From Agarophyton chilense (Eukaryota > Rhodophyta > Florideophyceae > Gracilariales > Gracilariaceae), in the NCBI GenBank assembly GCA_030374765.1, contig JARGXX010000016.1, positions 806,001-870,000 of the forward strand: 64,000 nt of DNA. The letters are read 5' to 3'. Below the pieces are notes generated by a model that worked only from the letters and a program-made list of their open reading frames with translations, made no database searches and was not told where the DNA came from. The position numbers were made by a program, and so were the translations under genes. This document shows, in pieces, positions 25,487 through 56,442 of the stretch. Positions within the stretch are counted from its first letter, which is position 1. Every line of letters begins with the position of its first letter.

Positions 25487-27000
25487 CGTCTGTGATTTCG
25501 GAAAGCTAGTACTGGGTGCTAGATTTCTAGTTTGGGCGTGCTAGAGTGTCTATGGTTAGCATTGAAACATTCGCAAAACTTTGATTCCAGAATAGGTAGC
25601 GCAAAAATACTAGCCCAAGTGAATTTTGGGGAGAATGTAGAAAACTAGCAAACACCGGTACTAACACCGGCATACTAGGAAGAATGGAAGAGAACTTGGG
25701 AGATATCTTTCGATACTCATAAATCCTAGACCATGAATTCTACCGATAATGAAAGGAATACTGAACGCGATCTAGCCCATGATCATTCATTTCGCGTAGG
25801 TATCGCAGCTCGTATGAACCGTTCAAATGCCCTGCACATTCAATTTAATGACCTCTACTGACTCTAATGGCCAGTTCATAATACTTCGATCCTGCAGCTG
25901 AGACCCGAAACGGGTCCCCGTTGTACGTGAAATGAAATCTTCCCAATTCACATGCGGTGACCCGCTTTGCATCACGTCCTCCGATCGTTGCGCTTCACTT
26001 CGCGTCGCGGTTCGCGCGACGCGAAGAACCCTCCATTCTCCAAGAACCGTCCAAGCGGTACACGAGTTCACCGTTCATCAATCACAAATTCCAATATAAC
26101 TAGATAGACATCACAAAATCACACAAAATAGAGCCCAATTCCTCGCTTCATGCAAGCAAATTCTATACGAACAAACTTACCTCTGCCAAATATGTGCTCC
26201 TTGTCTTGCTCCCACTTTGTGCATTCGCATCAATAAATAGACAAAAGTCAGATCTCCGTCACAAAACAAACCCAAACCACATCAGCACGACACTTACCTC
26301 TATAGCGACCACTTATCCCACATCTCGCCCAATCTTGCCTCCATGTTCTCTTGCAGCAGCAAATAAAGGTAAGTCAGATCTTCTCCCCTAAATCATACAA
26401 AATACGATTGCAGCTCGCACTTACCTGTGAATGCCACAATTTCCCGATCAATCACTGTCGTAACATGAAAGAAATATAAATTCAGACTTCCACCAAAAAT
26501 CGGAACCACATTACTTCAATGACGCACTCACCTCCTAAGAACCTTGCTCGGCCCAGTCCTTCGAGAATGTCCCCCTCCTCACCCAATCGCTCTTTTCTGT
26601 CGCTTCGCAGCAGCAAAAAATAACATGTCAGAACTCATTCCAAAATCAATACCAGATACCAGTAGCACTTGCACTTACCCGCACTTCCATCATTCCCCCT
26701 TCATATAGCGTCGCCCTCACTGTCGAAACAATAAACAAATACAAATCAGATCTCCGTCAATAATAGAAAGAAATTTCCTCAGCGACGCACTCACCTGCTA
26801 AGCAGCTTTCTTGATTCACTTCCTTCAAGGATGTTCCCCTCCCAACTAAATTTTTCCTCTCCGTCGCTTCGCAGCAGCAAACAAGAACATGTCAGGTATT
26901 CTTCCTACATCTCTACGAGACACCAGTAGCACTCGCATTCAACATTAACTCAACGAATCCTGCCCCCCCATTCCAATTTTCTGTCCCTTCACAGCCACAG
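25487..27000 (+). repeat. Left terminal inverted repeat
   Basis: The reverse complement of 42371-43874 with many substitutions and small indels. The outer 250 bases are rich in CTAG-containing motifs (GCTAGTA, CTAGATTTCTAGTTT), which look like subterminal transposase sites. The inner 1 kb contains the exon/intron-like array. Confidence 0.88.
26170..27000 (-). other. Left array of exon-sized segments and short intron-like units
   Basis: Read on the minus strand, GTAAGT/GTGAGT donors recur near 26180, 26296, 26423, 26533, 26677 and 26792. Each is followed by a TCTGAC branch-like box and a pyrimidine/GCTGCTGCGAAG or TTACGACAG acceptor. Exon-sized pieces of about 40-70 bases lie between. It mirrors the right array and reads outward. 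Confidence 0.6.
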
Positions 27001-27165
27001 GGGAGGGTGTGAGGTCGAGCTCGCTATCGGAGGTAAACGGCTGCATGTTACCGACCTGCGGATGAAGTCTTCTAAGATAGAGATGGTCGCATTGTTTCGT
27101 AAGGCGCAGCTGTGAGCCGGTTCTGTACGGTGTTCCCAGCTCGAAAGTTGTCTGTTCAAAAGGGC

Positions 27166-27660
27166 TTAGTCTGTGTTCTCGGGAAGCTAGTATTAGCCGC
27201 TAATTTAGTATGCGGGAAGATATCCGGCCAAAAAATCTGCGAAAAATGACGGATCGCGGATGCAGAGGTAGTTTCTGTTCATTTTTTAGAGTGCCAGATA
27301 GTTTTGGCTTTCGATTCTATATCAAAATCCTGCACATTACGAATGGGAAACGAATGCAAAAGCCTCTGCTAGTTTACCGCCTATGTTTGGATGCCAAACG
27401 CTAGATGTGAATCACAAAAGCCTGGCTCAAACACCCTCACACGAACTTGGTGTTCTCGGAATGTTAGTTCCAGGTGCTTGAAGCGTAGGGGGCAAAGAAA
27501 ATCGTCAAAAAAATCTGCGGAAAATGAAGAATCGGCAATGTGCAAGCAATTAATTCAGATTTTTCGTATACCACACCTTCACGCATTCACGCGAATACTA
27601 GCATTGGAGAATGCAGAACGGAAGTGAACTGAAGGGCTAGTTTGTATCTCATTCGATGGA
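27166..27660. repeat. Internal copy of a transposon-end-like sequence, in two degenerate units
   Basis: GTCTGTGTTCTCGGGAAGCTAGTATT at about 27169 closely matches the first 26 bases of the transposon ends, and a weaker second unit starts near 27428 (GGTGTTCTCGGAATGTTAGT). Both continue into similar AAAATCTGCGRAAAATGA stretches. This looks like a nested or duplicated terminus of a related element. Confidence 0.5.
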
Positions 27661-27781
27661 AGTGAAACGCTAGTTTATCTACCTTTAACAACCACCAATA
27701 AACTCTTCAATAATCCTACCATCGGCACTACACCCCTACCATTCTTCCCTTCCGAAGGACTCCCAACCCGGTGGCAGCTAC

Positions 27782-28195
27782 GTGGCCGTGTCCAGGAACA
27801 ACTGCCACGCCTGGAATACTTTCAACCATCTACTTCTCCTCCTCAACACCCCCCGCCACCCCCAACGGATGCTCTACATCTCTTACACCAACGTCTCCAA
27901 GTCTCTACGTCGGGCTCAATTCGTCGGCGACATCGTTCTCTGCATTCGAACATTGCTCGACCGAGTCATATCCGTCTTCTTCGCTCACTTCCTCCTGGAA
28001 TTTTTCAAGCACTCTTCCTTGATCTCCTCCACAGCCGCCTCTCCCCTAATCACCAACACCCTCTTCAGCACACTCTTCATATTCATATTCTCTGCTGCCG
28101 TCAACTACGAACTGGATTACAAATTCAAGCGCTACATCTCCGCATTCGGGGTGTACCCATTATCACGTACCAGACTCCTCCTTCCCTTCGAATAG
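27782..28195 (+). CDS. Possible membrane-protein frame or exon inside the transposon, unrecognised
   Basis: An open frame of about 138 codons. The first in-frame ATG is at 27869; upstream it is open without an ATG, so it may be an exon. It contains two hydrophobic stretches (VISVFFAHFLLEFF and LFSTLFIFIFSAAV). The sequence is CT-rich and the frame could be chance. Confidence 0.25.
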   Translation: MAVSRNNCHAWNTFNHLLLLLNTPRHPQRMLYISYTNVSKSLRRAQFVGDIVLCIRTLLDRVISVFFAHFLLEFFKHSSLISSTAASPLITNTLFSTLFIFIFSAAVNYELDYKFKRYISAFGVYPLSRTRLLLPFE

Positions 28196-28742
28196 CACTA
28201 ACACTTACACTAGAACACTACCAGACTTTATTCTTTACGGCCTAGTGAACAATAAATAAAAACACTCTTCACTTAATAACTCAGCTCCCCTCCTCATCAT
28301 TCCCCGCATTCACCCCTTTCAAAGGTTTGTAGCTCCCACCCTCTTCATCTCCCTTGTCTTTGCATTCGTCTACCACCTCAATCACTCCCTCCTCATCCTC
28401 TCGGACTTAATCATCTACTGCCACGTTTTCTTCCTGTTCATCCACGCCATTCTCTCTCAAAACGCAAAGTTCTTCCTAAACCTTAGCTTTCAGTTGCACC
28501 CCATCAGGCAAGTTCTAGTTCTCCGGAACCACGTAAATATGGTATCGAAACAGCTTCTAATCCGACATGACACCGTCTGCACTTCCCGCTCCAACATGAA
28601 AGACATCACCCCTCCCAACGAATATCGACATCGGCGATATCGTGTTCTTTTTCACATACATCCGTTGCGCGACCCACTCCAACTCCGCATTGCTCTTTGC
28701 GTATAGGTTATGCGATCTTACACACACCCACATTAGAAACTA

Positions 28743-29874
28743 CTACCTTCCAGTTGCCATCATTAAATAGCCCGGGTTCTTCCTCTCCATCTTGTCACGG
28801 TTCGTCAACGTCTGAAAGTCAGTATGTAGCTCTTTCCGCGGGCATCCATTCCCAGTACACAACACCCTTACCCTATTATTTGGAGCGTACATCTTCATCA
28901 CCGCCACTTGGTTATCTTTCAAACCCGAGCACACACATATCCGTCCCATTCGTGGATCCAACATCGCACGCATCTTCCCCCATACATTCCTATCCACTTT
29001 CAACTTCATGTCGTCCACTTTCCCCCTCGTCATCGTCATATAACTTCCAAGCCCCATCCTACTATCCGAGGGGCTCTGCTCCTCCCCAGCCTTGATGATT
29101 GCATCCCAAATAGGCTGATACTCCGGATACCGGAAGTCATCTTGCTGCCTAAAACTGATCTCAAAGAACTCCAGCATTCACTCACTTACATCCCCACCCA
29201 TAAATTCGCTCGTCTCCCACAGCTTCTTCAACGTTAATCCATCCGTCGCAAACCCTTCCATCACACAGAACCCACGCACTTTCAGTTTCTCTACCCTCCT
29301 CGCAAAATACACAAGAGCACAAAACTCTTCAGTCATCGCCCCCTTCCATAATCGTTTCTCCTCTTCCTTTCCCACCACTCCCTCCCTAACCACCATCGCC
29401 CTCTCCTCTTCGTACGACGCCTGCCAACACACCGCATGACGAAGAGCTCTTATGTCGTGCGATCTCAGCACAGATGGCCACGGTGTTGTTTTCGCAAGTG
29501 CACTATATCCATCCAGGAATACATGTCCTTGATCGCCTCCTCAGTCCCCTCCGGCCATCTGATCTTCAGCTACGTCGCATATCCGAGCCACGTCTTCTAC
29601 CCTTCCACTCCTACTCCAACCCAGGTTCTAGTAGCGCCGGAACCAGATCATCAAATGCCAGAAAATTGGCACTCTCCTCCTCTGCGTGCTCGGACTCACC
29701 GAGAAGGGGAACGTTCTGGCAACTGAAACACTCCCGCAAATCCCAAGATCCTATCGCCCGGAAATAGCTTATCAAATACTCTGGGACAGGGTCTTCTAAC
29801 CTGGCCTTCTTCGAATACTGTCCATTTCCACCTTGCTTCACACGCCTATTCCAAACGCTCCGCGAAACATACAC
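28743..29874 (-). pseudogene. Decayed transposon gene of unknown function
   Basis: Minus-strand frames at 29611-29874, 29178-29471 and 28743-29177 have protein-like composition. The last two are in one frame separated by a single stop at 29178-29180; the first is in another frame. The C-terminal part has a Cys-rich patch (RICVCSGL, VLCTGNGCPRKEL) that could bind zinc. I do not recognise the family. The 5' end abuts a truncated copia LTR at 29910. Confidence 0.4.
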
Positions 29875-29909
29875 CTCGTCATCTTCTTCATCCTCATCAC
29901 CTTCTTCCG

Positions 29910-30339
29910 CAGCTGGTGTACTATGTACAAGTCTCCCAACGTGTATCGAATGTACTTGGAGAAGAGAGTGTCATGTCTATTACAGAAGACTTGGTGTACT
30001 GTGCTGGAAGGTGAACGTGTATGGAGGCGGATTGCAAGAAGCGTGTGCTGGCATATTGAATTTGTGCACACGTCAGTGTAATGATGTGCTGTGCACTGTT
30101 GTATTGCCTTGTTGTGTGCTGCAATGAACTTTGGCTAGGGTTAATGTCGTGCTTGAATATGATTGGTAGTATCGGGTGTCCCTGCTTTGTAGTCTAGGGT
30201 CTACTCTGGGTTGGCGTCTGGTTGGCTGACGTTTTTTGAGTTTTATATAAGTGAGAGATTGAATGCCTCCAAGTAAATCCGAGCCAGAGCTGGCGAACTT
30301 TCCTTTCATCCCTCAACCTTTCCTTCAGCCTTTCCCTTT
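29910..30339 (+). repeat. Truncated Copia-A LTR
   Basis: Matches the second part of the LTR at 33053-33741, including the GCTGACGTTTTTTGAG stretch and the TTTCCATCA end. The 5' portion is absent. No primer-binding site follows. Confidence 0.85.
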
Positions 30340-30397
30340 CCATCAGCCCTCGCTTTCCCCATCTCTTTCGCTCTCTCTTTAGCCCTCGCTCTCTTCG

Positions 30398-30580
30398 TTG
30401 CCACTCGCAATTTCTCTTCGCTGCACGCGATGCCTCAAAACGTTTCCAAACAAAAACGCCCTCAATCGACACATGGTCGTCCATCACATTGTCATATCTT
30501 CGCCACTGCCCACCACAGTGCAACATACATTCCCCGATTTCGTGACCAATCAATTGCCAACCTCAACTCCGTCTTCATAA
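30398..30580 (+). other. C2H2 zinc-finger fragment
   Basis: The frame encodes CTRCLKTFPNKNALNRHMVVHH, spacing C-x2-C-x12-H-x4-H, followed by a Pro/Ser/Thr-rich stretch. It may be the N-terminal finger of another Plavaka-like transposase, because that family often starts with such a finger. It is isolated between a truncated LTR and Gypsy-2. Confidence 0.45.
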
Positions 30581-30730
30581 CCAACTTTTGTACCGCCATC
30601 ACCAAAACACCATCTGCCGCTGCAATACCGTCCGCAATTAACCTGCGCACCAACTCCACCTCCACCACCGACCCCACTCCAACTCTAACTACGAACCCTC
30701 CTGTGAAGAAGCGATGATAACGGTTGGGCA

Positions 30731-33052
30731 ATGTAGGCTGCCGGGCCCTGAAGGATCTCGCAGGTGACACGTGGAAGGGTCGACCTCACATGGACTCATG
30801 TGGATTTTGAATTATTTTAATTAGTTTAATAGATTAGCATTACAGTGCCAGGGAGATCCTAGCGCCTCATCAGTATTAATTACTGGGCTCGAGTGACGCG
30901 TCCCCCTTAGAGTACAGTAGGTACCGTTAGGATACTAAATAACCCTCTTTGGTATATTAGTTCCACCCTTTGGTCTTCAAGCCATCGTTTCGGTATCTCC
31001 AACCGGTAGGACTACGCAGTAAACGCCATTCCATTGCACCAAGTACTCTGGGAGTGCCGCCGTCAAGGATTCGAAGCTTGGGACTCGTTCTACAACGCTA
31101 CCACCGGTTGAGACCCGTACGCTGACCCAACAGTCATTGCGGTACGTTTTGGTCTCCCGACTTAGAAACCTTTGAAATAATTGAAGGGACCACTGGAACG
31201 AAGAATTATCCGGATTCTAACTTTGGTTTAATTCCCCAGCGGACCAGAAGTACAGAAGCAACCGCCATTATGGATGCAGGAAACACACTCAATCGACCAG
31301 ACCATAGGGCTCCTACGGCAGAATATAGTGCGACTACCACGCCGGCGATATCGCCTGACCCTCAGGTCGACACCGTTAGCAATCGCAGGAGCACGAGGAG
31401 CAAGCCGCAAGAAGTACTGACCCCCTTGGATAACCCTGAAAGGACTCGCCGAGAACCCACGGTGGCAGCGCGTTTACGAGAACGCCTCACCAGGGCCACC
31501 TCTAGGCCAAAGACACCTCAAGGGGAAACCCACCAGACCGAAGGAATTAGAGAAAACATCCCCGCAGGGCTTGCCGACCTTCTCTGGTCCCGTCTCCGTG
31601 AGCTCTGCTCAGCCCATATGGATTCCGTTATGGACGTCCGACTCGCTACGGCGATCGCTGTACGGATTACCTCATCACGCGAATCGTCCTTAAGGTAGTG
31701 GAGTCTGAATTATTCATAGACTCTCTTCTACAGGCCGTTCAAGAAGCAGTCACCCGCCAGGCAGGCAATTTTGTCCCTAGAACCACCCAACCACAAATTA
31801 ACCATCAGGTCTCCATATGGCAACCCCCAGGAGTGGCGGCATTATCCGCCCCTCGCCGGGAATACCATCAGGAAAACTCCATGGTGGGACAATCTAGGAG
31901 CAGAAGAGAAGCTCCGCGTTTAGATGAGAGACAGGTTGCCCATCAGGATAATCCAAGGCAGGAACAAGCGAGGAGCAGAAGAGAAGCTCCGCGTCTAGAA
32001 GAGAGACCGCTTGGCCCACCCAACGGATTAAATGAGGTACAGCGACCTCAGGTCTCCATCGGATCTGATAGAGAGATCGATCCTTTAGGTCCCTACTCCA
32101 CTGGAAAGAAAAGAAGAAACCGCAGCAGAAAGAAGAAAAGAAGTAGCAAAAGAAGAGCACGAGTGATTCCGAATCGGCCTCGACCAAAACGACCGACTTG
32201 GAAGTGGATGAGGCTGCCGTTCGAGGCCTCAGACCACTGACAACCACAAACGAACTTTTCCTTAAGGTTGCCCACTACCGGAAGTACCGGCGGGCCGACA
32301 GGTTCGCGAATTATTCGGGTTCGGTGGCTTGCAAAGTCGCCAGATGGGCCAAACGGATGCAACTAACCATTACGGACAAGTTGTCGGGTTTCGATCCCAT
32401 TGCTGTCATTAGGTTGCTAAGTTTTTTCCGTACGGCCTGCGATCAGAACAGTGTCCACGAGGGCGACGCTCTGTATTTTTTCCAATTCTTCCTTACAGGA
32501 CAGTCGCGTGACCGAGTGGTTTCGAAGATATCTGGCACAACTGACCTCGTGGATGCTCAAGACCGTGAGCTCTTCAGGTCATACCCCCAGGTATTTCATT
32601 ACCTCTTGGAAACTTTCGCCACAGATGACGTTATAATGGATGCACACCAGGAAATGATATCCTTTACGCAGATCTCCAGCATGACCGAATCGGCTTTCGC
32701 AGACGATCTATAGAAGAAGGTTTACCGACGTGGAAACGTGTTCTCCGAAGGACGACTTAAACGTCACTTCGTCACGGGATTGCTCCCTGCCATTCGGACA
32801 CATGTGGGCAATTACCACACGGAAAACCCTCAATACTCTGTCCGAAGGCTCTTCAACTACGCCGAAAGTCATGGCAAAACCTACAGGACCTCCAGGCGCA
32901 ACGCTGATATATCCAGAGAACACGAAATTCCATTGCGTAAACCCAACCAAGCCCATTTGGTTAGCTGCACGGTGTGGGACATGGATGCTTCACTCAATTG
33001 TGACGATTCGGGAAACCTCCTCGCGGTCCATCTCAGTGCTTCTCCGTCCGAG
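30731..33052 (+). mobile_element. Gypsy-2: 5' part of a Ty3/gypsy element, broken
   Basis: A TGTAGG start at about 30731 and a region to about 31149 form the LTR (right edge uncertain). The primer-binding site TGGTCTCCCGACTTAGAA (31150-31167) is the same as in Gypsy-1. Gag follows from about 31270, with an Arg/Ser-rich first part and the gag core at 32.2-32.7 kb (KLSGFDPIAVIRLLSFF, YFLQFF-type helices). The element ends abruptly where a Copia-A LTR begins at 33053; protease and pol are missing. It has a few breaks. Confidence 0.78.
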
Positions 33053-33741
33053 TGTTGGTGCAAGTGCCTGTGCTGTCACTGAAAACCAAATGTGAAGGAG
33101 AGCATGGGCTGTTTTGAAGGGTGCCTCTGGAAAAGCGCACATGCGTATCAGCCGGATCTCAACGTGAACTCGTGCTGTGATTGGCTACTGCAAATATGCA
33201 CCTGCAATGTGGTGTGTACAAGTGGTATGGCACTATTGGGATTTTCTGGAGTACAAGTGTGTACGTTGTCTACTTGTACTATTGTGCACGCTGTTCAGGA
33301 TGTCCAGCTGGTGTACTATGTACACGTCTCCCAACGTGTAACGAATGTACTTGGAGAAGAGCGTGTCATGTCTATTACAGAAGACTTGGTGTACTGTGCT
33401 GGAAGGTGAACGTGTATGGGGGCGGATTGCAAGAAGCGTGTGCTGGCATATTGAATTTGTGCACACGTCAGTGTAATGATGTGCGGTGCACTGTTTCATT
33501 GCCTTGTTGTGTGCTGCAATGAACTTTGGCTTGGGTTAATGTTGTGCTTGAATATGATTGGTAGTATTGGGTGTCCCTGCTTTGTAGTCTAGGGTTTACT
33601 CTGGGTTGGCGTTTAGTTGGCTGACGTTTTTTGAGTTGTGTACAAGTGAGAGATTGAGTGCCTCCAAGTAAATCCGAGCCAGAGCTGGCGATCTTTCCTT
33701 TCATCCCTCAACCCTTTCCTTCATCCTTTCCCTTTCCATCA
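33053..33741 (+). repeat. Copia-A1 5' LTR (689 bp)
   Basis: Starts TGTTGG and ends TTTCCATCA. It contains the CGCATATGCG-like and GATTGGCTACTGCAAAT promoter elements near its start. It matches six other copies in the window. Confidence 0.9.
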
Positions 33742-33755
33742 GGTTATGGGCCCAG
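33742..33755 (+). promoter_or_regulatory. Copia-A1 primer-binding site (initiator tRNA-Met anticodon arm)
   Basis: GGTTATGGGCCCAG directly after the LTR is complementary to the anticodon stem-loop of eukaryotic initiator tRNA-Met, the half-tRNA primer used by Drosophila copia. Confidence 0.85.
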
Positions 33756-35212
33756 CCCCGCTGACCTCTGCCGTCTAGTTCGTCTCTCGCCGCTCTCCCT
33801 CACCGCCGTTCACCCGTTTCGCTGTTCTTTTCTCTTCGTCTCCACCGTCGTAGCCGTTGCCTCGGGTGTGTGACCTTATCGTGGGTTGGTGTTGGTATTT
33901 CCTTTCGGTCTTGCGTTCCTCCCTGAGGGCGTTGTGGTGGTAGTGGTTCGACTCTATTATCGAGATTGTGGTTGGGTGCGCGTTTTTGCCCGTGTTTGTC
34001 GATCGATACCCGTTTCGTTTGGTCTCCCTCTGTTTCGTTGATTTGTAGATCCCCGTGTCGTGTTTGCGGGTTCTGATTCGAGAGGTTGAGGACCGTGTTT
34101 GTTGATGTCTGGGCCTGGAGTTCTTGGCTCAGCGTTCGTGTGTGTTTGTGTGTTTGGTCTGCATCTTTGCCTGTGCGACGAGCGGTTGATCCGAGGTACT
34201 TTGGGTGATTCCTTGTACTCGGGGACGTTAGCCTGGCGGCTTTAACCAAAGAAAATGTACTGTCAAGTGGGTTCCCCACTGGTCCTTTTAGGGAGGATAA
34301 CAGTGACGGTCGAAAGATCTGGTTGAACTTTGCGGGTGCATTTGTAGACGGGGTACCGTGGCGCACTGCATTTGGCTGGTTGTTTGACTTTGTGTGTGAG
34401 CCCTACTTTTGTGGATGGGCACTTGGACTGTTTTGAACAGCATCTATAAGGAGCTCTTGATCCGCAGTACGCGGGGAGGCGACGTTTCGAAGGCTGACCT
34501 CCTTTTCAGGATCAGGCCGCGTGCGATCTTCATTGATTGCTCGTTAGAAGCGTATCTTGGTGTTGAAGTAGCTTCGGTTTCGAGGTCGTACTAGTTCCTG
34601 AAAGAGGGCAGAGAGGGCCAACTTGGTGAAAGCATATCTCCGGTCGTTAACCATCCTCTGGAAGCCTCGTAAGGAGCAACGCGCCTTCTCCTTTTGACGT
34701 GGGAGGAGGGAGACTGCAGAAAAACGTTATCTACCCAGAAGAGCTCTGGGGACCAGGGGTCCGACTTTTAGGGACGCGGGTATAGGAAGCCCTGCCAGTG
34801 CGCCCGCAGATTATTGTCTGTTCAATCTTGAAGAATTGTTTGTTGTTTTTGTGGTCTGTTGTTATTGTTTATTTGTCTGTTGTTGTCAAGCTATCTGTTT
34901 GGGACTCTTGTTAAACTTTGCGCAACATGGATTCATTCAGTGGGGTGAAAATCGAAAAGCTGGTTGAGGATAACTTCCACGTATGGAAGCAGAAGAGTGA
35001 GCTGCTGCTTGCACTCAAGGACCTCGACGATCACGTCGACTCGGTTAGACCCATTGACGAAGATGAGCTGTCGACTTGGAAGAAGAGAGGTGCCAAGGCC
35101 AGAGCTATTATTGGGCTCACACTCAGTGATGAGTATTTAGATCATGTGCGGGACGCCGACAACGCTGCCGATATATGGTAAGCCATTTGCGATGTGTTCC
35201 AACGTAAGACCC

Positions 35213-35891
35213 TGATGGAAAGGGAAAGGCTGAAGGAGAGGTTGAGGGATGAAAGGAAAGTTCGCCAGCTCTGGCTCGGATTTACTTGGAGGCGCTCAAA
35301 CTTTCACTTATATACTACTCCAACATGTCAGCCATCTAGACTCCAGCCCAAAGTATACCCTAGACTACAAAACAGGGACTCTCAATACTACCAATCATAT
35401 TCAAGCACGACATTAACCCTAGTCAAAGTTCATTGCAGCGCACAACAAGGCAATGCAACAGGGCACAGCCCATAATTACACTGACGTGTGCACAAATTCA
35501 ATATGCCAACACACAATACTTGCAATCCGCCTCCATACACACTCACGGTCCAGCACAGTACACCAAGTGTCCTGTAATACACATGACACGTCTCCCCTCC
35601 AAGTACATTCGTTACACCTTGTGAGATGTGTACATAGTACACCAGCTGGACATCCTGAACAGCGTGCACAGTAGTACAAGTAGACCACGAATACACGTGT
35701 CATACAAACACACCCAATAGTGCCATACCACTTGTACACACCACATTGCATGTGAACATTTGCAGTAGCCAATCACAGCCCGAGTTCACGTTGAGATCCG
35801 ACTGACACGCATATGCGCTTTTCCGGAGGCACCCTCCAAAACAGCCCATGCTCCCCTGTTTTCAGTGACAGCACAGGGTCAACAGCCAACA
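35213..35891 (-). repeat. Copia-A LTR, inverted
   Basis: TGATGG...AGCCAACA, the reverse orientation of 33053-33741, about 90% alike. Flanks GACCC and ATTCA do not match, so this is not a simple insertion. Confidence 0.88.
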
Positions 35892-36003
35892 ATTCACAGA
35901 GTCCCGGCATGCATATCAATGCAACGGTCTTCTTATCGACAGACCCCCGGATCATGCAGTCAGGAGTGTCGAACAAGGGGACGCTGAGGGGTCAAACAAC
36001 CGA

Positions 36004-37720
36004 GTGGGCGCGGGGAGACCTCCGAAAAACCAGAGCGTGAGGGAGTGGAGAAAGGGAGGGGAGGTTGAAAAAGGAGATGGACTCCGGGGTGGGGATGAGG
36101 AGGATGAGGATGCAATTCGCCCGTGGAAGGAAGGCGAACACAAGCGGATGAAGTATGCAGAAACGAAGTTTATTGGGCGGAATCACTTGTTGGCCAAGCT
36201 TGGAAACATTTAGAGGGAGCTTTAAAGGGCAAGGGATGACAACGCAAGTTTGCAACTAAGCTTGAAACTCGTACACAGGGAGATGAAGAGGCTGGAGGGC
36301 GAAGATATGAAAAAGGAAATGCTGCTGACGTCATTGCAAGAGAATCTTCGTGGTCGACCAAGAGAAGTGGGTGGCGAAGAAGGGAAGGGCGGTCGGAAAC
36401 GGTATGGAATTGAAGTGGATATGCGATTTATTGGAGTAGCCTCGAGAGCTTACGAGAACATATTGCGTTATGCAAAGGAGGAGACGAGTGAGTTGTGCTT
36501 CGGAAGGAGGGAACCGGAGCAAAACTGGTCGAACCGGGCAGAAGAAGTGAGGGCGGGAAGGAATCAGATTATTCTGATGATAAATGAAAAAGAGATTGGT
36601 GCCTATAGATCCTATGGAGCTGGAAAGAGGAAGAAAGTCGTGGGGACCGAACGTCTACACTCCGTCTTTTCAGGGAGGGAGTGATGAGATGTTGTTGCAT
36701 GTGGGGCGGATGGAGTTGGAGAATCCGATATGGAGAAAATTTGCTGGGAGAAGGATGAAGAAGCAGTGTGAAGAGGAGTTGAGGAGGGATACGTGTTTGA
36801 GGAGGCGGATGAAACAGGCTCTCAGAAATGCTGTGGGGGTTCGGAAAAGGAATGCGAGGGATAGGTTATTTTTGGGTCTGGGGTATACTCTACTTGCTAG
36901 AAAACCTCTTTACGAAGTTGATGAAGAACTGAATGTGCTGTATGAAGAGCAGAAGATGGAGGCTCAGGAAAAGTTGTTGCCGAAAGACGCAATGGGGGAG
37001 CCAGTCATATCTGCGTGGAGGTTGGACAAGCTGGAGAACCTATGTTTTTGAGGGTACGGTGTGAACTTGACAAAGTACGGGGATGAACCTGATGACTTGT
37101 ACTTCAAGAACGGATTGAGTGTGGAGGTGTTGAGAGAGTTTATGGGGTACGATGTGAAGCAACCGTGGAAGGAAGGAGAGACACAGTATGTGGATGAAAG
37201 TGTGATGCATCTGGCCCGCCTGGATGCGTAGATTGCATCTGTGGTAGAGGCCTTGGATGAGGAGATGGGTAGAGGAGGGAAGCGACAGATGCTGTTTTCG
37301 AAACTGTATGCGAAGCATTTGCCGGTTGCTGTGGAGGATATCTTACCGACAGCGAGAAGGAAGGTGGGAGAGAAGTACGGAGAGGAGCTGGTGAACCATG
37401 GTGTGAAGGATGAGCACCCAACTGAAGTGCTGGGAGATGACGAACGTGAAGGAACGGTTGCGTTTTGGATCCCTTCGAACCAACTAGTCTATCTGGGTGT
37501 TCGTTACGAGGTGTTTCTGGAGGAGATGACGACTTTTCTCGGGTATGTATTTGATTGCTAGGTCGGACGTTGTATGCCTGAAGAACGCGAGTTTAAGGAG
37601 TTGTTGGCGGAGGAGAAAGAAATGTGGGAGGCGAACGAGGAAGGAGAGGAGAGAGATGGGGAGGGGGTGGAAGGCGGAGGTGAAAAAGATATTTTTGATG
37701 AGTGATAACTTTATTATCAG
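36004..37720 (+). pseudogene. Decayed charged, partly coiled-coil transposon gene
   Basis: Plus-strand frames (36004-36684, then another frame about 36584-37720) together show one continuous charged composition rich in Lys/Glu/Arg. Visible parts are an early GRPPKN and a later LRGRPREVG motif (AT-hook-like), and a coiled-coil-like stretch around 36.24-36.33 kb (SLKLVHREMKRLEGEDMKK). Helical segments around 36.8-37.0 kb and a C-terminal acidic tail follow. I count about four in-frame stops and one frame change. It lies tail to tail with the transposase gene and could be the element's second, DNA-binding protein; the family is not recognised. Confidence 0.45.
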
Positions 37721-37730
37721 AAGATGGGGG

Positions 37731-40700
37731 TCATTTGCTTAAAGTTGATTCTTTTGTAGAGAAACAAGCTCTCGCTCGTGGGTCGCGGTAGAATCTGTTG
37801 ATATAGAAGCGATGTTCATGCCAGGGGAGGGGCGGGAAGAAAGGGCGTGCTGGGTAGTTCTGGCGGACAAGATGGACGGAACCGAGGATGGCGGAGAAGG
37901 GAACGAGACCGAACCAGGGTGCGACATAGGAGCCAGAGAGTTGGAATCTGTCTCCAGCGGGGGGGATTGTGTGGTTCTGTTCATCGTCTGTTGCCCAACG
38001 GAGGGTGATGCACTTCAGGGTTTCATCCACGTGATCGAGGGGAGTTGTGAGTTCGAAGAAGCGGACAAAAGCGTATTCGCGTTCGTCAGGATTTTCATCT
38101 TTTTTGGGAAAGCGAAGAAGGGCGAGGAGCTTGCAGACCCAAACAGTGGGGAAGTTGCAGTTAGGTGGTGGAGTACCGGAGACGAGAATGTGAGAGGACT
38201 TTGGAAGTTTGGAAGCACCGAAGGTGGAGGTGGCAAATATGCGCTGTGTGACGGGGACTGGTGGTTCTCTGAAGCGGATGCAGTTGAATGTTTCGTCGAC
38301 GTCGTTCAAGGCGGGGGTGAACCCGCTGGGGATGAAGGCAGAGTTGAAGAGGGAGAAGGTAGGAGAGGAGAGAGACAGGGAAGAGGGAGAGAGTCCGAGA
38401 GCTTCGAGGCACAGGTCGTGAAAGGGTGAAATGGCGTCGCGTGAGATTTGGGTGATGAAAGAAAGGTTGGAAGATGTGAACATGTTTGGGAGAGATGCAT
38501 TGGAGCAGTTTCGGTTTGCACGGAGGTACTTCTTTTCAGTGATGATGTCACGGAAGATCACGGTGGTACCGTCGCGGACCATGGAAAACGGTCGAGCATG
38601 ACGGAAGGAGCAGTTTGAGGAGGAGGAAATGTGGTGGGGAATGGCGGTTGAGTTTCGGAAGCCTTCTGTGAGCTGGATTGCGTCGACTGTTTCTATCTGA
38701 GCGGTTGAAGATCTTCGGGATGTGCGTCGATAGTGGTTTTTGAAGTAGAGGTGTGCATTTCCGTAGATGTCGGCGTCGGTGAACTGAAGACCTTCGTATA
38801 GATCAATATCAGCAATGATGTGGTCCAGAAGGTGGAACTTCAGTGTTCTGAAGTGAGAAGCTTGGAAAGGGGCGAGGACGGAGACGCAGAGAGACTTGAA
38901 TGCTTGATGAGCTCCTGGAGGGCGCAAAGTCGTTGGTCTCTCCATTCTGAGGTGGTGTTGTGGTGGAGTGTGGCGGTGAAGAGGTCGGCGTATGCTGTGA
39001 AAATGGAGGTGATGGGAGCTGTGTCACCGTCACCGCAACAACGGTCGAAGAACGCACCTATGAAGGGGAAGACCATGTCGACAGCGCAGTAGTCTTTTGC
39101 CTCGAGAATGACTTTGATGCCGTCCAAGGTGAAGAAGCCGTTTAGGTATGTACCCTTTTCTGGTGTGCGAAAGTCGATGTGCAGTCCGGGTGCGGAGAAG
39201 TTGGCTTCGATATCTGCGAGGATACTGTTTGCGTGGGTGAGAAGGAAGCTTCGGATGGATTTAAAGGATTTCGAGGAGCCGTTGGAGGACGCAGGACTGT
39301 TGAAAATGCTGTCGGACTTCAAGCGTTCGATCGTTGTCAGTTTGACGAGCTTGTATTGGATAGGGAAATGCTGAAGGAAAGGTTGAGGGAATGAAAAGGA
39401 AGTTCGCCAGCTCTGGCTCGGATTTACTTGGAGGCGCTCAATCTCTCACTTATATACAACTCAAAAACGTCAGCCAACTAGACGCCAACCCAGAGTAAAC
39501 CCTAGACTACAAAGCAGGGACACCCAATACTACCAATCATATTCAAGCACGACATTAACCCTAGTCAAAGTTCATTGCAGCACACAACCAGGCAATACAA
39601 CAGTGCACAGCACATCATTACACTGACGTGTGCACAAATTCAATATGCCAGCACACGCTTCTTGCAATCCGCCTCCATACACGTTCACCTTCCAGCACAG
39701 TACACCAAGTCTTCTGTGATACACATGACACGCTCTTCTTCAAGTACATTCGTTACACCTTGTGAGACGTGTACATAGTACACCAGCCGGACATCCTGAA
39801 CAGCGTGCACAATAGTACAAGTAGACCACGTACACACGTGTACTCCAGAAAATTCCAATAGTGCCATACCACTTGTACACACCACATTGCATGTGCACAT
39901 TTGCTGTAGCCAGTCACAGCCCGAGTTCACGTTGAGATCCGACTGACACGCATATGCGCTTTTCCAGAGGCACCCTCCAAAACAGCCCATGCTCTCCTGC
40001 ACATTTGGTTTTCAGTGACAGCATAGGGTCAACAGCCAACAGCTTGGAGATACCCAGATGCAAATTGTGAAGGGGTTCGAAGGAGAAGATAGAGTAGGTG
40101 GTGAAGAGTGGGGATATATTAAGTAGAGGGTATGTTTCGAAGAAGGATTGGTACGCGGAGAGGGAGTTTGTGCGGAGGAGAGATGCTGCTTGGTCTCTGA
40201 GAGTTCTTGCTACGCGCGGTCCGCGAAGTTGTTCGGCGTCGTTGGCATCCTTGAGAAGGGCGTCGTGTGCGGATCTGGTGTGACGGGTGTGGGAAATAGT
40301 TCGAGGGGATACGGAAGTGAGGTGGAGGTTGAGGTCGGAGCGAGGTGTTAGGCATCTGTGGCACGGCTTGGATGGGTTTGTGCCGTGTAGGATGGCGAGG
40401 ATGTCTTTTGCTTCTGGGATGTCTGCAGCATAGTTTGCGATGACTGGGTGGCACTGTCGGATGACCTGGTCTTCATCACGGAAAAGAAAACCCTTGAGGG
40501 GGACTGCAGCGAGGGGTTCGAGGATGGTTTGTAGAGAACCTTGGATGAGTTCCATTCGGGTGGTGTGGCTGAGAGCTTCGAACGAGGTGGGGAAGTAGCC
40601 AAGGAGGGTGTAGTTGCGGGAGATGAAATGGCGGCGGAAGGAGTCTGAAAAGTTGAGGAGGGTGATGTGAAGGGGGTAGGAGGTGATAGAGGAGCTTTTC

Positions 40701-41542
40701 AGGGAGATGGACGACTTGTCTGAGTAGAGCTGGATGAAGCCGATGAAAGATTCCATGCCAGTGATGTCCGCGTTGTGCCAAATAACATCTGGGTCTTGAG
40801 AGCAGAGGATGTGGTGTTTGAGGTCCGGATAAACACAACTGCCGAGTTTTGAAGCCATGGGATGAGCGAGTGTAAAAGAACCATCTGAAGAACATTGTCT
40901 GACGTGGTGGAAGAAGGTGGTAGCGCGAGTGCGAGTGGCCTAGCGAAGCTGCTGGAGAAGGACATCGACGTGATTTTTGAGGTAGAGAGTTGAAGTGATG
41001 TTTGAGGGATTGTGACGAACGGTTGTGGATTTGAAGGCGATGGAGCCGACAGTGTCCTCGAATAGTTTGGAATGAAGTTGAAGGCAGTGGGAGACGGAGG
41101 TAACCTGTTGAATGAGTGTTTGGGAGTAGTTGGGGTCCTTGAGGGGGGTAATGAGTTCGTCGGCTTTGCATTTTCCCAGCTTGGTGGCGATGAATGAGAT
41201 GTAGGAGACGATGGAATGGAGCTTCACGAGTGGGCGAGGGCTGGAAGAAGGGGAGCGAAGAGAAGCGTTGAGAATGTTGGCGGCGTTTGCGGAGCGTATG
41301 GCCAGAGCGAGCTGGCTCGAATGGTAGTCGTCCTCTTCTACCAGCGGAACGATGTCGGAAAGGCGGTTGGAGATGCCAACGGAGCGCGTGTCTGTGGTCT
41401 GGACGCGTGGGCGCTTCGTGCGTGGTGGGAATTGAGTTCCATCTTTTGGGGTGGTGCGGTAGCGACACCGGCACTGGTGTTGGACAAGGGAGGTATCACC
41501 TTTTGTCTCGAAGGTGCACCTTGGGAAGCGACAAGGCTGCAT
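37731..41542 (-). pseudogene. Plavaka-like transposase of the large DNA transposon
   Basis: The start ATG is at 41542. Residues 1-28 hold a Cys/His finger (C-x4-C-x12-H-x3-C). The frame runs to about 40.04 kb with one in-frame TAG at 40940-40942. Landmarks of Plavaka transposases follow: QLYSDKSS (catalytic-type Asp, near 40.72 kb), YPLHITLLNFSDSFRR, LLGYFP, CHRCLTPRSDL near 40.3 kb, and FSFEPLHNLHLGISKL near 40.05 kb. A solo copia LTR interrupts at GISKL; since LTR plus duplication is 693 bases, the phase is kept. Reading resumes at 39.35 kb. A frame change lies between 38.84 and 38.95 kb. The last part has the family's KFHLLDHI...DIYGNAHLYFKNHYRR block and a 250-residue C-terminal domain. 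A TATA-like TATATATT lies about 80 bases upstream. Confidence 0.8.
39354..40041 (-). repeat. Solo Copia-A LTR inside the transposase gene
   Basis: 688 bp, flanked on both sides by GCTTG (39349-39353 and 40042-40046). A clean 5-bp duplication with no internal copia sequence marks an insertion later reduced by LTR-LTR recombination. Confidence 0.92.
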
Positions 41543-42198
41543 GGTGTGGAGGGTGCCTGCGCGCGATCTCGGAAAGTAAATCGGGGAGGTGAAAAAGACG
41601 TAGGACGAGGTGAGAAGGAGAGAATATATACAGGCTGGAGGTGAGGAAGATGCACGACGAGGACGATGCACGACGAGGACGATGGGGAGAGTTTAAACTT
41701 ATCAGGCGTACTCACCAAGGTCAAGTGATGCGCCAGAGACACCCACAAGTCGTGCGGCAGGACAGAAACGGCGCATATGTGGCTTAGAAAGTGCGTTGGA
41801 ATGAAAATATTCAAAGTTGTTTATTTTTGAGTGGCGGCGTGTACTTGTATTGATTTTGAGTAGTGGCCGGATGAGCAGTTGTGGGATCTTAAGATCCTGT
41901 GATGTGATGTCTTCTGAACCTTGTGGACCTTCCGCGATTTCTAGGTGCGTGAGAAGCGGTATTGGGCGTGCGTTTCAAAAGTGCTGACTGTGTTTCTATT
42001 TGTGCGCGAGCGGGCGGAGCACGACCGGGGCGTTTAGTGATGCGGTGCGGTGTGGTGGGTGACGGGTTTACCAGCTTGCGATTGAGATCTACATCGTCTA
42101 TGTTGATCTGGGGCCTTGAAACTGTTTGTGGTCATGCGCAAGCGGGCGAAGAGCGAGGGGAGTGATGGGTGATGCAGTGTGGGGTGAAGGGTAGGCGG
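41543..42198. promoter_or_regulatory. Divergent promoter region between transposase and right-end array
   Basis: Minus-strand TATATATT at 41623-41630 suits the transposase start at 41542. On the plus strand the region leads into the outward-reading array. Two degenerate units of about 135 bases begin near 42.0 and 42.13 kb. No other gene is seen. Confidence 0.4.
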
Positions 42199-43261
42199 GT
42201 GAGTTGGTTGCGATTTGGAGGTACCCGGCGCGCAACGTTGACTTGGTGTGTTTGTTCTCCTTCTGGTTGCTAACATGAGAAACCTATTTCAGCGGCCCTC
42301 ATGATGATGAACAGGTAAGTTTGCTACGTTTTCTGCTCTGCAATCTGGACGAAGACCTGACATATTTTGGACTGTGGCTGCGAAGCGACAGAAAATTGGA
42401 ATGGGGGGGCAGGATTCGTTGAGTTAAAGGTGAGTGCGAGTGCTACTGGTGTCTCGTAGAGATTTAGTAAGGATATCTGACATGTTATTGTTTGCTGCTG
42501 CGAAGCGACGGAGAGGAAAGACTGGGTGGGGAGGGGAACCTCAAGTGAATCAAGCAACTGGCTTAGGAGGTGAGTGCGTCGCTGAGAAAATTTCTTTCTG
42601 TTATTGACGGGGATCTGACTTGTATTTTTTATTGTTACGACAGTGCGGGCGACGTTGTATGAAGGGGGAATGATTGAAATGCGGGTAAGTGCGAGTGCTA
42701 CTTGTGTCTGGTATTGTTTTTGGAATGAGTTCTGACATGTTATTTTTTGCTGCTGCGAAGCGAAAGAAAGGAGCGATTGGGTGAGGAGGGTGATATTCTA
42801 GAAGGACTGGGCCGAGCAAGCTTCTTAGGAGGTGAGTGTGTCATTGAAGTAATTTGGTTTCGATTTTTGGTGGAAGTCTGACTTATATTTCTTTCTTGTT
42901 ACGACAATGGTTGTTCGGAAAATCGTGGCATCAAAGTTAAGTGCGAGCATCAATCGTATCTTGTATGCATTAGGGAAGGAGGTCTGACTTGCCGTTGTTT
43001 GCTGCTGCAAGAGAGCAGGGGGGCAAGATTGGACAAGAGGTGGGATAAGTGGTCGCTATAGATGTGAGTGTCGTGCTGATGTGGTTTGGGTTTGTTTTGT
43101 GACGGAGATCTGACTTTTATCTATTTAGTGATGCTAATGCAGAAGGTGGAGGCAAGACAAGGAGCACATATTTGGCAGAGGTAAGTTTGTTCGTATAGAA
43201 TTTGCTTGCATGAAGCGAGGAATTGGGCTCTAACTTGTGTGAATTTGTGATGTCTATCTAG
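42199..43261 (+). other. Right array of exon-sized segments and short intron-like units
   Basis: Donor-like sites lie at 42199, 42315, 42430, 42570, 42685, 42832, 42938 (TTAAGT), 43064 and 43181, with spacings alternating around 115 and 140 bases. Nearly every unit then has a TCTGAC box, about 25 bases of T-rich or GCTGCTG sequence and an AG. Clear exon-like pieces are 42506-42569 (64 bases), 42644-42684 (41) and 42761-42831 (71). Two unit types alternate, so the array grew by duplication of a dimer of about 255 bases. Exon lengths do not keep one phase, so a protein product is doubtful; a spliced noncoding transcript is possible. Confidence 0.6.
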
Positions 43262-43874
43262 TTATGTAGGAATTTGGGATTGATGAAGGTTGAACTGGTG
43301 TACTGCTTGGACGGTTCTCGGAGAATGGAGGGTTCTTTGCGTCGCCTGAAGTGCGACGCGAAGTGAAGCGCAACGATCGGGGGACGTGATGCAAAGCGGG
43401 GCTCCGCATGCGAATTGGGAAGATCTCATTCCACGTGCAACGGGAACCCGTTTCGGGTCTCAGTTGCAGGATCGCCGTATTATGCACTGGGCATTAGGGT
43501 CATTAGAGGACATTAAATTGAATGGGCAGGGCATTTGAACGGCTCATACTAGCTACGATACATGCGCGAAATGAATGATCATGCGCTAGATAGCATTCAG
43601 TATTCCTTTCATTGTCGGTAGAATTCGTGGTCTAGGATTTATAAGTATCGAAAGATATCTCCCAAGTTCTCTTCCATTCTTCCTAGTGTGCCGGTGTTAG
43701 TACGGATGTTTGCTAGTTTTCTACATTCTCCCCAAAATTCAATTGGGCTAGTATTTTTGCGCTAGATATTCTGGCATCAAAAATCTGCGAATCTATGAAT
43801 GCTAACGATAGACATTCTAGCACACCCAAACTAGAAATCTAGAACCCAATACTAGCTTTCCGAAAACACAGACG
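42371..43874 (-). repeat. Right terminal inverted repeat
   Basis: Inverted partner of 25487-27000; ends CTAGCTTTCCGAAAACACAGACG at 43874. Confidence 0.88.
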
Positions 43875-43936: not shown

Positions 43937-44609
43937 TCACAACGTGAGCGCAGGTTAGGTAAAGAAAAAGGAAGAAGAGGGGGAAAAGACGAGAAGAAGA
44001 GAAAAATAAAAGAAGAGAAACAAAGGAAGGTAGTCAGCCTTGACAATTTACTTCGATCGTTGGCGACCGTCATTGAAAACTATATCTACCTCGCACGCAC
44101 TTCCGCCGCCGGTGCTGACCGTCGGCGGGTCACCCACGTCTCACACCTTGCCACTGTGCGACGAGGAGTTGCGCGCCAAAACAATTTCAAACATGAAGCA
44201 TATCAAATAAAAACTCAAAAAATCATCCAAAGTGGTGCGCCAGTGCCAACCACCCCGCGCAGCCCAGATTCGGCTGTTACGGCCAAACCCCGTATCCAGC
44301 CCACATTCGCACATTCTCTCCAACTGCATAGCCCGTGCTCATTCAGCGCTCTCGTCCAATAAAATCGCTCCACTTGGGCCGAAGCCCCAACACGCCCCAT
44401 TAGAACCAGACCACTTGTCCATACCACGTTGCATGAGGGCATTTGCAGTAGCCAATCAGATGGCCGTTTCACGTTGAGATTGAGATGAGGCGCATATGCG
44501 TTTTTCCGCGAAGGGTGCCCAAAAGTGCCCATGCTTAAATCCACTTTTTGTTTTCCACTATTTCCAACACTCCAAAGGGCTTGGGGGCACAGTCGACCAA
44601 ACCTCAACA
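43937..44609 (-). repeat. Copia-B1 3' LTR
   Basis: Begins TGTTGAGG on the minus strand. It carries CGCATATGCG (44491-44500) and GCAGTAGCCAATCA upstream promoter elements. The gag-pol stop falls just inside its edge. Confidence 0.92.
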
Positions 44610-47600
44610 CTCCTCCTCGACTGGTCGGCCAAGTCCAACACGGTCCACGTTATTGTTGTGAAGACCTGGGCCAAGTGGTTTAGTTAAGAAGTCCGCATCA
44701 TTGTCTTCACTTGGAACGTACGTCACATTGATGTGACTATCCTTGACTAGTTCCCGAACGAAGTGCAACTTAACGTCAATGTGCTTAGCGCGACCCGACG
44801 GACAGCGTTCACCAGTTGCCCAGTCAATGGCGCACTGGTTGTCCGAACGAATGGGCACAGCACCTTGCACTTTCCATCCAATCTCCTTAAGCACACGCTT
44901 CAACCAAATAACCTCCTGACACGCAAGCGTCAAAGCATAATACTCGGCCTCGCCGGTAGACAACGCCACCGAAGCCTGTTTTCTTGCGCCCCACATACAT
45001 GTCGCTTTGCCAAGCTTCACTAAGAAACCAGACATTGACTTGCGATCACGCGTGTCCGCAGCGTAGTCAGAGTCAACGTACGCCTCCAGTTTCACCATGC
45101 CAGAGTGATAGTGCACACCATGTTCAGTTGTACCGCGAAGGTAACGAAGAACCCGCTTTGCTGCCTTGTGACAGTAGGCCGTGGGCGATTTCTGAAAACG
45201 AGCCAAGATTAGGACGGGTGCTAATATATCCAACCGAGTTCTCAGTGCCAAATACAAAAGCGATCCAATGATCTGCTGGTACAGCTGAGTATCCTGGATG
45301 GATTTGTCTTTCTCAGATGTCCACCCGGAAAAAAAAGATTCTACCATAGGGGTGCATGCCGGCTTGGATCGCTGAAACCCGAAACGGCGCAACACGCTTT
45401 CCGTGTACAGTGACTGACCAAGATACAGCGACACAGGTCGACCATCTGAATCTAAAGTCCATTTGAATTCAACGCCGAGGTACAAGTTCACTTCCTCCGC
45501 AACACGCAGCTCGTAAAACGACTTAAGCTCCTCCAAAATCGCATCACGTTCCATGGCAGAAGTTGTGAATATTAGCAAGTCACCCACATAAACTAGCACG
45601 AACGCATCCTCATTGCTCTCGTTTTGGCGGCGAAACACGCAAGGTGCACTCGGTAACTCTTCAAAACATATGCTTTTCATATCCTCGCATAGTTTGTTGT
45701 GCCATGCCAAGTGCGCTTGCTTAAGTCCATAGATAGCCTTGAGCAACTTGAAGCATCGTGAAGTCACGCCAGGTATACCTCGAGGTGACATGATCCACAC
45801 ATCTTCCTCAAGTTCGCCATTGAGAAACGCAGTCTTCACATCCACCTGTACCACATACATGCGCAAGCATAACGTCAGATACAAGAATATGCGAACCAAA
45901 GAGAACGAAACAACTGGTGCATAAGTCTCCATGTAGTCCTGACCATATGTTTGGTGGTTTCCACCGGCTACAACACGAGCCTTAAAACGTTCAACTGACC
46001 CATCAGCATTGCGCTTTACCTTCAGTATGACGTGAGTTGGTAGTGGTTGTGAAGCAGGAGAGTCATCAGGTTTCCAAGTTTGCTTCGACTCCAATGATGA
46101 AAACTCTTCATCGACGGCTGCTTGCCACATGGTACGCTCCTGCGCACTGGCGGACATTGCCTCCTTGAGTGAGGGCTCATCACTAGTAGTGACTTTGACT
46201 TGCGATGTACAGTGAGCAGACCCTGCCATGAACCACCTCAGAGGTTGACGGCGCGTGCGCCGCGGGTAGCGTGGTTCCGTATCAGCGTTGGCAGATGTAT
46301 CAAGGTCATCAGCAGCACTTTCGTCATCACTTTCGGAATCCTGTGCATCGTCTTCATTGCTGCCGGAGTCTGACTCCGACTGCCTGAGTGCTGGAATCAG
46401 GTGCGAGGATCCGTCATGAACCACCTCCTCCTCAACATTATCGACGGAGAAGGTATCCGATTCGTCATCAATGCTATCACACAATCCCATATCAGAGCTA
46501 TAGTCAGCATCTGACGCACTTTCATCATCCATGTAGTTGGCAAGAGATGATGCGCCAGGGAACTTGGATTCATCAAAAGTAACATGTCGTGACTCAATAA
46601 TACGCGGAGTACCGTCATTATCAACGACGAGTACCTTGTACACACCATGCTCAAGAGTCTCCAAGTACACTCCCTCAAGTGCACGAGACTCGAACTTGGG
46701 TCCACGCGGAGTCCTTAGCACGAATGCAGTGCATCCAAACACACGCACGTGCTTCAACAAAGGTTTATTTCCAGTTACCAGAAAGTAGGGACTGTTGTTA
46801 ACAGTAGAATGTTGCACTCGATTACGCACAAAGATAACATGTTTCAGCGCATATGGCCACAAACATTCTGGTAGATCGGCTTGGATCAGCAACGATCGAG
46901 CAGCTTCCACCATGGTACGATTGATGCGCTCAGCTATAGCGTTGTGTTCGGGGGTGTATGGAGCAGAGAAAGAAGTGAGGCCATGTTCTGCTGCCAAGTT
47001 CTCTTGCAGGGCAATATATTCTTCTGCACCGTCCGAGTGCAAACTTTTGATATGCACTCCTCCAACCTGCTTAAACTTTGCCGCAATACCCACAAACACA
47101 TCACTAAGAGCACTGCGATGGATCACCAGACCTAGGAACACATACCGTGAGTGATCATCGAGGAATGTACATGCATATTGAAACTTTTCCGGAAAAGACT
47201 TTTCCAGAGGACCTACAATATCCGAGTGCACAATGTCACCAACCGCGGATGCATGTTCAAAGTGACCTGGGAACGGAAGCTTATGAGCCTTGCCAAGTCG
47301 ACATGCTCGGCATACCTCCTCCATGTCACACAAGTGCGGCACTCCATCTGCGTACTTGTGTACATGTTGCAGATCACGTTGGTTGATGTGAGCCAGTCGT
47401 CGGTGCCACAGTTGAGTCTCCGTAGACTTAGTCGCAAGCGCAAGTTCCACACCAGCATGCCCTAAAGGTTGAGGCAGTGTGTACATGCGAGATACCTTGT
47501 CACGACCACCAATGCCCACCTCAAAACCATTTGACTCTAGCGTCAAACGTACACTATGACGACCGAAGAGCGACTCAATACCTTTGTCGGCCAAACACCC

Positions 47601-53869: not shown

Positions 53870-54557
53870 TGATGGATAGGGAAAAGCTGAAGGAAAGGTT
53901 GAGGGAATGAAAAGGAAGTTCGCCAGCTCTGGCTTGGATTTACTTGGAGGCGCTCAAACTTTCACTTATATACTACTTCAAAACGTCAGCTGTCTAGACT
54001 CCAACTCAAAGTAAACCCTAGACTACAAAGCAGGGACACTCAATACTACCAATCATATTCAAGCATGACATTAACCCTAGTCAATGTTCATTGCAGCGCA
54101 CAACAAGGCAATATACAGTGCACAGCCCATAATTACACTGACGTGTGCACAAATTCAATATGCCAGCATACACTACTTGCAATCCGCCTCCATACACATT
54201 CACTTTCCAGCACAGTACACCAAGTCTCCTGTAATACACATGTCACGTCTCTTCTCCAAGTACATTCGTTACACCTTGTGAGATGTGTTCATAGTACACC
54301 AGCTGGACATATTGAACAGCGTGCACAGTAGTACAAGTAGACCACGTACACACGTGTACCACAGACAAACCCAATAGTGCCATACCACTTGTACACACCA
54401 CATTGCATGTGCACATTTGCAGTAGCCAATCACAGCCCGAGTTCACGTTGAGATCCGACTGACACGCATATGCGCTTTTCCAGGGGCACCCTCCAAAACA
54501 GCCCATGCTCCCCTACACTTTTGTTTTTCAGTGACAGCACAGGGTCAACAGCCAACA
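53870..54557 (-). repeat. Copia-A2 5' LTR (688 bp)
   Basis: Almost identical to 61682-62369. It has a TATATAAGTG TATA-like box in sense orientation near 53965. Confidence 0.92.
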
Positions 54558-55755: not shown

Positions 55756-56442
55756 TGATGGAAAGGGAAAGGCTGAAGGAAAGGTTGAGGGATGAAAGGA
55801 AAGTTCGCCAGCTCTGGCTCGGATTTACTTGGAGGCACTCAATCTCTCACTTAAATACAACTCAAAAACGTCAGCCAACTAGACGCCAACCCAGATTAAA
55901 CCCTAGACTACAAAGCAGGGACACCCAATACTACCAATCATATTCAAGAACGACAGTAACCCTAGCCAAAGTTCATTGCAGCACACAACAAGGCAATACA
56001 ACAGTGCACCGCACATCATTACACTGACGTGTGCACAAATTCAATATGCTAGCACACGCTTCTTGCAATCCGCCTCCATACACGTTCACCTTCCAGCACA
56101 GTACACCAAGTCTTCTGTAATACACATGACACGCTCTTCTCCAAGTACATTCGTTACACCTTGTGAGACGTGTACATAGTACACCAGCTGGACATCCTGA
56201 ACAGCGTGAACAATAGTACAAGTAGACAACGTATACAGGTGTACTCCAGAAAATCCCAATAGTGCCATACCACTTGTACACACCACATTGCAGGTGCATA
56301 TTTGCAGTAGCCAATCACAGTACGAGTCCACGTTGAGGTCCGGCTGTTACGCATATGCGCTTTTCTAGAGGCACCCTCCAAAACAGCCCATGCTCTCCTG
56401 CACATTTAGTTTTCAGTGACAGCATAGGCACTTGCACAAACA
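55756..56442 (-). repeat. Copia-A3 3' LTR
   Basis: 687 bp; its start resembles Copia-A1 (TGCAAGTGCC) more than its own partner. Confidence 0.9.

Follow-up and report, generated by a model that had tools for sequence, protein, structure and literature searches.

An array of intron-like cassettes at the ends of a Plavaka-like transposon in Agarophyton chilense

The ends of maize Spm are able to supply splice sites. This report concerns a Plavaka-like transposon of the red alga Agarophyton chilense, located at positions 25487-43874 of a 64-kb stretch of contig JARGXX010000016.1 (positions 806,001 to 870,000; the window, to which all coordinates refer), which carries a series of intron-like cassettes at its right end and in an inverted copy on its left side. 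This structure is real and unusual; it is most likely a relic and represents a variant of known processes. Among the closest described systems are the Plavaka DNA transposons of Agaricomycotina, of which PlavakaA has TGT..ACA ends and a 2-bp target-site duplication (Kojima 2025, PMC12730594). The CACTA element Tgmt* of soybean has subterminal repeats, 24 of them within 732 bp at its right border and 4 within 159 bp at its left, in some of which the 10-bp motif AATCTTACAG is missing or incomplete (PMC2613891). With regard to intron gain, internal tandem duplication can multiply a pre-existing intron along with its flanking exon (Knowles and McLysaght 2006, Gao and Lynch 2009, cited in PMC4974935), whereas introners occur as copies that have inserted into numerous genes (PMC9860276).

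The present element shares with Plavaka the PF18759 domain, TGTG..CACA ends and a candidate C(2)C motif, seen by eye as CHRC; unlike Plavaka, it shows no matching target-site duplication, its transposase region is split, and it has a 1.5-kb inverted copy of one end with an intron-like array. As in Tgmt*, the repeats lie between the terminus and the genes and display a donor-like box on one strand, whereas the short motifs of Tgmt* form palindromes, and the units found here have one orientation, separate boxes and lengths of 104-147 bases. The repeated unit holds a complete intron together with exon sequence, as in internal tandem intron duplication; here, however, there are seven to nine cassettes, they lie at a transposon end, and no reading frame is clearly kept. 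Like introners, this is an intron-bearing mobile sequence, but it forms a local tandem array, and no related copy occurs in the window beyond the two arms. Among the titles and abstract openings listed by literature searches, none named intron arrays in Plavaka ends.

The intron-like array and its units

An earlier note on this DNA had described, in both inverted repeats, a series of donors, branch boxes and AG acceptors that read outward. When a strict cassette is defined as GTRAGT, CTRAY and AG in this order, seven are found outward in 42199-43261 and three in the left arm, and none is found inward in either, which bears out both claims. Dinucleotide shuffles (1000 per region) gave means of only 0.161 cassettes on the right and 0.103 on the left, with maxima of 3 and 2, and the remaining 60.9 kb of the window holds three strict cassettes, both strands together, of other sequence. 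The donor-branch-acceptor series is real and not a product of chance. Tandem Repeats Finder, at a minimum score of 30, did not list the array.

The right array (42199-43261, + strand) comprises nine intron-like cassettes, at 42199-42292, 42315-42385, 42430-42505, 42570-42643, 42685-42760, 42832-42907, 42937-43011, 43064-43128 and 43181-43261. Seven are strict; the cassette at 42832 lacks its AG, and that at 42937 lacks its GT (TTAAGT; a shifted GTTAAG starts at 42936). The donors, at the first base of each cassette, are 104-147 bases apart, close to the 105-145 bases claimed previously. The left array (26100-27000, - strand) has seven cassette positions, three of them strict (26794-26720, 26678-26603 and 26424-26350). 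By the strict scan, U2-type intron signals (GT donor, branch box, pyrimidine tract and AG in order) are present in 7/9 cassettes on the right and 3/7 on the left. The outermost right cassettes, 42199 and 43181, consist of GTRAGT, CTAAC and then a TTTCAG or CTAG acceptor. The intron-like pieces are 65-94 bases long and are separated by exon-sized pieces, as had been noted, but the candidate internal exons of the right array measure 22-71 nt rather than 40-70.

The alternation of two unit types is also evident: two-unit repeats, each consisting of an A half and a B half, are spaced 252-264 bases apart. Because the units are tandem copies, the cassettes are not independent events, and the relevant point is that the signals were kept while single units diverged to 60-77% identity. 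Internal exons of the right array are 68.5% purine and 18.4% T, compared with 48.0% purine and 37.9% T in introns, and the branch-to-AG stretch is 53% T. These features make the units look like introns rather than like one repeated binding site.

We give a probability of roughly one half to the reading that the array is what remains of an outward-directed, putatively spliced transcription unit with many introns, multiplied by tandem duplication and now a relic. When seven right-arm units are aligned, 9 of the 11 donor and branch columns are invariant, compared with 9 of the 78 other gap-free columns, although the donor share of this figure is biased upward by cutting the units at the donors. 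The branch columns, at which the units were not cut, are invariant in 5/5 cases, and the exon columns in 0/21.

Beyond the donor bias, several observations weigh against this reading. The single gap-free AG column in the unit alignment is not conserved (identity 0.333), and all four type-A acceptors (42385, 42505, 42760 and 43011) are AAG, a triplet that makes a weak acceptor. Units 42430, 42685 and 42937 are also nearly identical at bases +7 to +12, a conservation that splicing does not require. Substitutions between the two arms are spaced by threes in two regions of the right arm (9/9 in 42764-42860 and 13/14 in 42976-43066) and cross the intended intron borders; no model considered here fully explains these runs. 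Moreover, no relative suitable for comparison was found in the searched viral contigs, genome contigs or phage records: a pattern search for relatives of the transposase domain gave 6 stretches in viral contigs and 38 in genome contigs, none of which was confirmed, phage records yielded no match, and the donor pattern gave no hit in viral contigs.

The nearest rival would be a subterminal array of sites to which a DNA-binding protein of the transposon attaches, comparable to those of plant CACTA elements, the donor-like appearance being a by-product on one strand. The array does lie where such sites would be expected, between the transposase gene and the terminus. Furthermore, the Tgmt* motif AATCTTACAG is the complement of a GTAAG-like donor (PMC2613891), and the box reads ACTTAC or ACTCAC on the inward strand here. 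Nonetheless, a short motif in both orientations near the ends, typical of CACTA elements, is not what is found, given that all cassettes point in one direction; the spacing of 104-147 bases and the presence of two distinct boxes alongside zones rich in T and in purines also fit poorly. In addition, CTAG-rich sequence sits apart from the array, in the outer 310 bases: CTAG occurs 10 times in the outer right end (43560-43874, 315 bases) and 9 times in its mirror image at 25487-25800, out of 132 occurrences in the window. This outer segment appears to be a better candidate location for transposase sites than the array. Finally, the positions of the boxes are not conserved between the arms (see below), which counts against a working binding site as well. 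We therefore regard a binding-site array as unlikely.

Comparison of the two arms

The right arm (42372-43874, + strand), which contains most of the outward array and the outer terminal region, is 89.9% identical to the reverse complement of the left arm (25487-27000, - strand, also reading outward) over 1514 columns (BLAST), with 139 substitutions (69 transitions and 70 transversions). Large inverted copies, as previously noted, are thus present. However, the left copy begins inside intron 42315-42385, and 42199-42371 is not part of the inverted repeat. The left copy is therefore without the first exons of the array, its first intron and the larger part of its second intron.

Between the arms, which form one pair of copies, splice positions vary as freely as the rest, the outcome that the earlier note had named as counting against its proposal: 10/91 splice positions differ, compared with 68/784 in the rest of the array (Fisher p=0.44). 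By signal, the differences are 4/42 in donor hexamers, 4/35 in branch boxes and 2/14 in AG, and, for the core bases alone (GT, A and AG), 5/35. Exons differ at 38/352 and other intron positions at 30/432 (p=0.07), compared with 60/613 in the outer repeat. Only 2/7 shared cassettes (42570 and 42685) have kept all their signals in both arms. At the other 5/7 shared positions one of the arms has lost a signal, namely the left donor 26942, the right AG 42907, the right donor 42937, the left AG 26233 and the left branch box opposite 43230; in the cassette with the lost AG at 42907, an extra base also alters the left branch box opposite 42878, where the column count shows only C to T. Thus, on the timescale that separates this one pair of copies, splice signals are not conserved, a result that, like the truncated left copy and the split transposase region, speaks for a relic. 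Of the proposal that the inverted repeats duplicate a many-intron transcript, the outward intron-exon architecture stands, being above chance, whereas arm-to-arm selection on splice signals is not seen.

This comparison also bears on whether the array encodes a functional many-intron noncoding transcript that reads outward and that selection continues to maintain in the family, such as one that controls the promoter of the divergent transposase gene or transcription running on into host DNA. Such a role would agree with the retention of 7/9 cassettes in the right region, with the canonical introns that open and close the array and with its divergent orientation relative to the transposase region. 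It is nevertheless very improbable, given that each of the 5/7 impaired shared cassettes is damaged in one or other arm, that the transposase region is split and that the RNA shows no structure above shuffles. Indeed, the predicted fold has z=+0.95, and 16/20 shuffles fold at least as well, so that a regulatory RNA, in the sense of a folded RNA, finds no support. Searches of Rfam at the gathering score and for tRNAs gave 0 matches, and a bacterial promoter scan is uninformative for a eukaryote.

Coding potential of the array

The third-spaced substitutions suggest a different possibility, that of a protein-coding gene with small outward exons (an inward frame being less likely) that was under codon-level constraint in both arms until recently. 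A longest run of 10 was reached in 0.00095 of 20,000 random placements, and two runs of at least 8 in 5e-5 of them, although both statistics were chosen post hoc. Around the first run (42760-42866), 6 codons are synonymous and 3 changed, whichever strand is read. Around the second (42970-43070), there are 11 synonymous and 2 changed codons inward, in a frame that is open until a stop at its end, and 10 synonymous and 4 changed codons outward. That outward frame, however, contains an internal stop, and the run reaches into an intended intron.

When exons are joined at the first AG past each branch box, stops occur in all three frames of both arms (8, 10 and 13 per frame in the right, 42100-43480; 9, 9 and 6 in the left, 27000-25900), and the longest open stretches are 78 codons on the right and 58 on the left. 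If acceptors are chosen freely, an outward four-exon chain of 54 codons from 42644 (left 26719) can be assembled in both arms, with the same TAA and similar peptides. This chain was, however, picked post hoc from 32 (right) and 12 (left) combinations without a shuffled control, and it needs GAG-type acceptors and, in the right arm, AA in place of AG. The peptide suggested in the earlier note would thus require acceptors to be chosen freely.

A coding model with GT-AG introns was not clearly above 200 shuffles in either direction, scoring 15.97 outward against a null 90-95% range of 15.66-16.51, and 19.19 inward against 18.57-19.43; the score covered the whole arm, and only the array part was shuffled. 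Two inward frames, of 157 codons (right, 42324-42797) and 95 codons (left, 26104-26391), were considered as candidates and rejected, each being interrupted in the other arm. Because the 54-codon chain is shared, yet the coding model does not clearly exceed shuffles, it is possible that the array was once a small-protein gene, but constraint that lasted until recently is quite unlikely.

The element, its ends and the probable history of the array

The assignment to Plavaka made in the earlier note is supported: a match to the Plavaka transposase domain PF18759 lies at 39917-40939 (-) (E=1.6e-22, profile positions 109-318 of 325). This domain and the intron-like signals would by themselves suggest a fungal element. 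It falls within the 5' part of the transposase region (39917-41692, -), of which 40943-41692 (-) gave no domain match in the profile search. Reading frames at 37731-39445 (-) may continue the transposase and have no Pfam match. By eye, CHRC is a candidate C(2)C motif, and LHNLHLG provides H(2)H, compared with H(3-4)H between the second D and E in Plavaka, the catalytic residues being unaligned. Because the region is split by a repeat of approx. 690 bases that resembles a long terminal repeat (LTR; 39357-40041), the present Plavaka copy is most likely dead.

Further copies of this LTR-like repeat occur at 29912-30342, 33067-33738, 35216-35891, 53873-54568, 55759-56428 and 61685-62371. The last two probably serve as the LTRs of a copia element at 55756-62371 (-), with gag/pol frames in between. 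Another copia gag-pol frame, at 44604-48905, is open over 1433 aa and possibly intact. Between the left end and a nested repeat there are coding-looking frames at 28743-29970 (-), of which the two tested (28746-29177 and 29181-29540) have no Pfam match, and a 75-base tandem repeat at 31865-32014 lies within an open frame (+) of 212 codons.

Sequences resembling the termini were found at 25491, 27172 and 27449 (+) and at 43870 (-), with 0.00 expected. Because the search pattern was derived from the element's own ends, only the sites at 27172 and 27449, with 1 and 3 mismatches respectively, are informative. The former marks E2 (27172-27404, +), a candidate for the true left end: 27169-27194 is a 26-bp match to the right terminus, beyond which the likeness is weak (score 61 vs. 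a shuffle maximum of 56). E3 (27449-27673, +), 277 bases away, is clearly a diverged tandem copy of E2 (score 87 vs. a shuffle maximum of 50). TGTG at 25491 and 27172 and CACA ending at 43870 fit the TGT..ACA of PlavakaA; GTC preceding TGTG is also common to the ends, and hence the exact end is not fixed. No matching 2-bp target-site duplication is seen by eye (TC precedes 25491 and 27172, GA follows 43870), which could be explained by old or rearranged ends.

Since left-end-type termini occur at 27172 and 27449 and the left copy starts inside an intron, the original element was probably 27172-43870 with a short terminal inverted repeat, and 25487-27000 would be a further copy of the right end, placed there in reverse. 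This copy could be either an extra end of the element or the end of an adjoining related element. The inverted arms themselves, at approx. 90% identity, therefore stand as described, whereas the status of 1.5-kb inverted repeats as native ends is doubtful.

If the array is such a relic, its history may be reconstructed as follows. Outward transcription would have begun in the interval that separates the transposase gene from the array and proceeded toward the right end of the element, and introns of 65-94 bases would have been removed from the transcript. An ancestral exon-intron cassette of approx. 125 bases may have been multiplied by tandem (unequal) duplication, presumably in two stages, of which the first yielded an A-B pair and the second multiplied such pairs of 252-264 bases, every duplicate bringing along a donor, a branch box, a T-rich tract and an AG. 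At a later time, the segment that extends from within the second intron to the right terminus would have been duplicated, as an inverted copy, on the left side, which would account for the mirror image, and both array copies would now be decaying. A more ambitious proposal is that some Plavaka family carries, beside the divergent transposase gene, a functional outward gene of tandem intron-exon cassettes, specifying either a small protein that changes fast or a noncoding RNA, and that splicing of this gene adjusts transcription at the element end or into host DNA, the present copy being a decayed member. We consider this distinctly improbable.

If the cassettes are spliced, the array would be a natural case of introns that multiplied in situ at the end of a transposon, which would be useful for understanding how introns multiply and would bear on whether splice signals are a feature of the ends of fungal CACTA-like elements. 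If they are not spliced, the array would be a caution that a donor-branch-acceptor series can persist as a relic.

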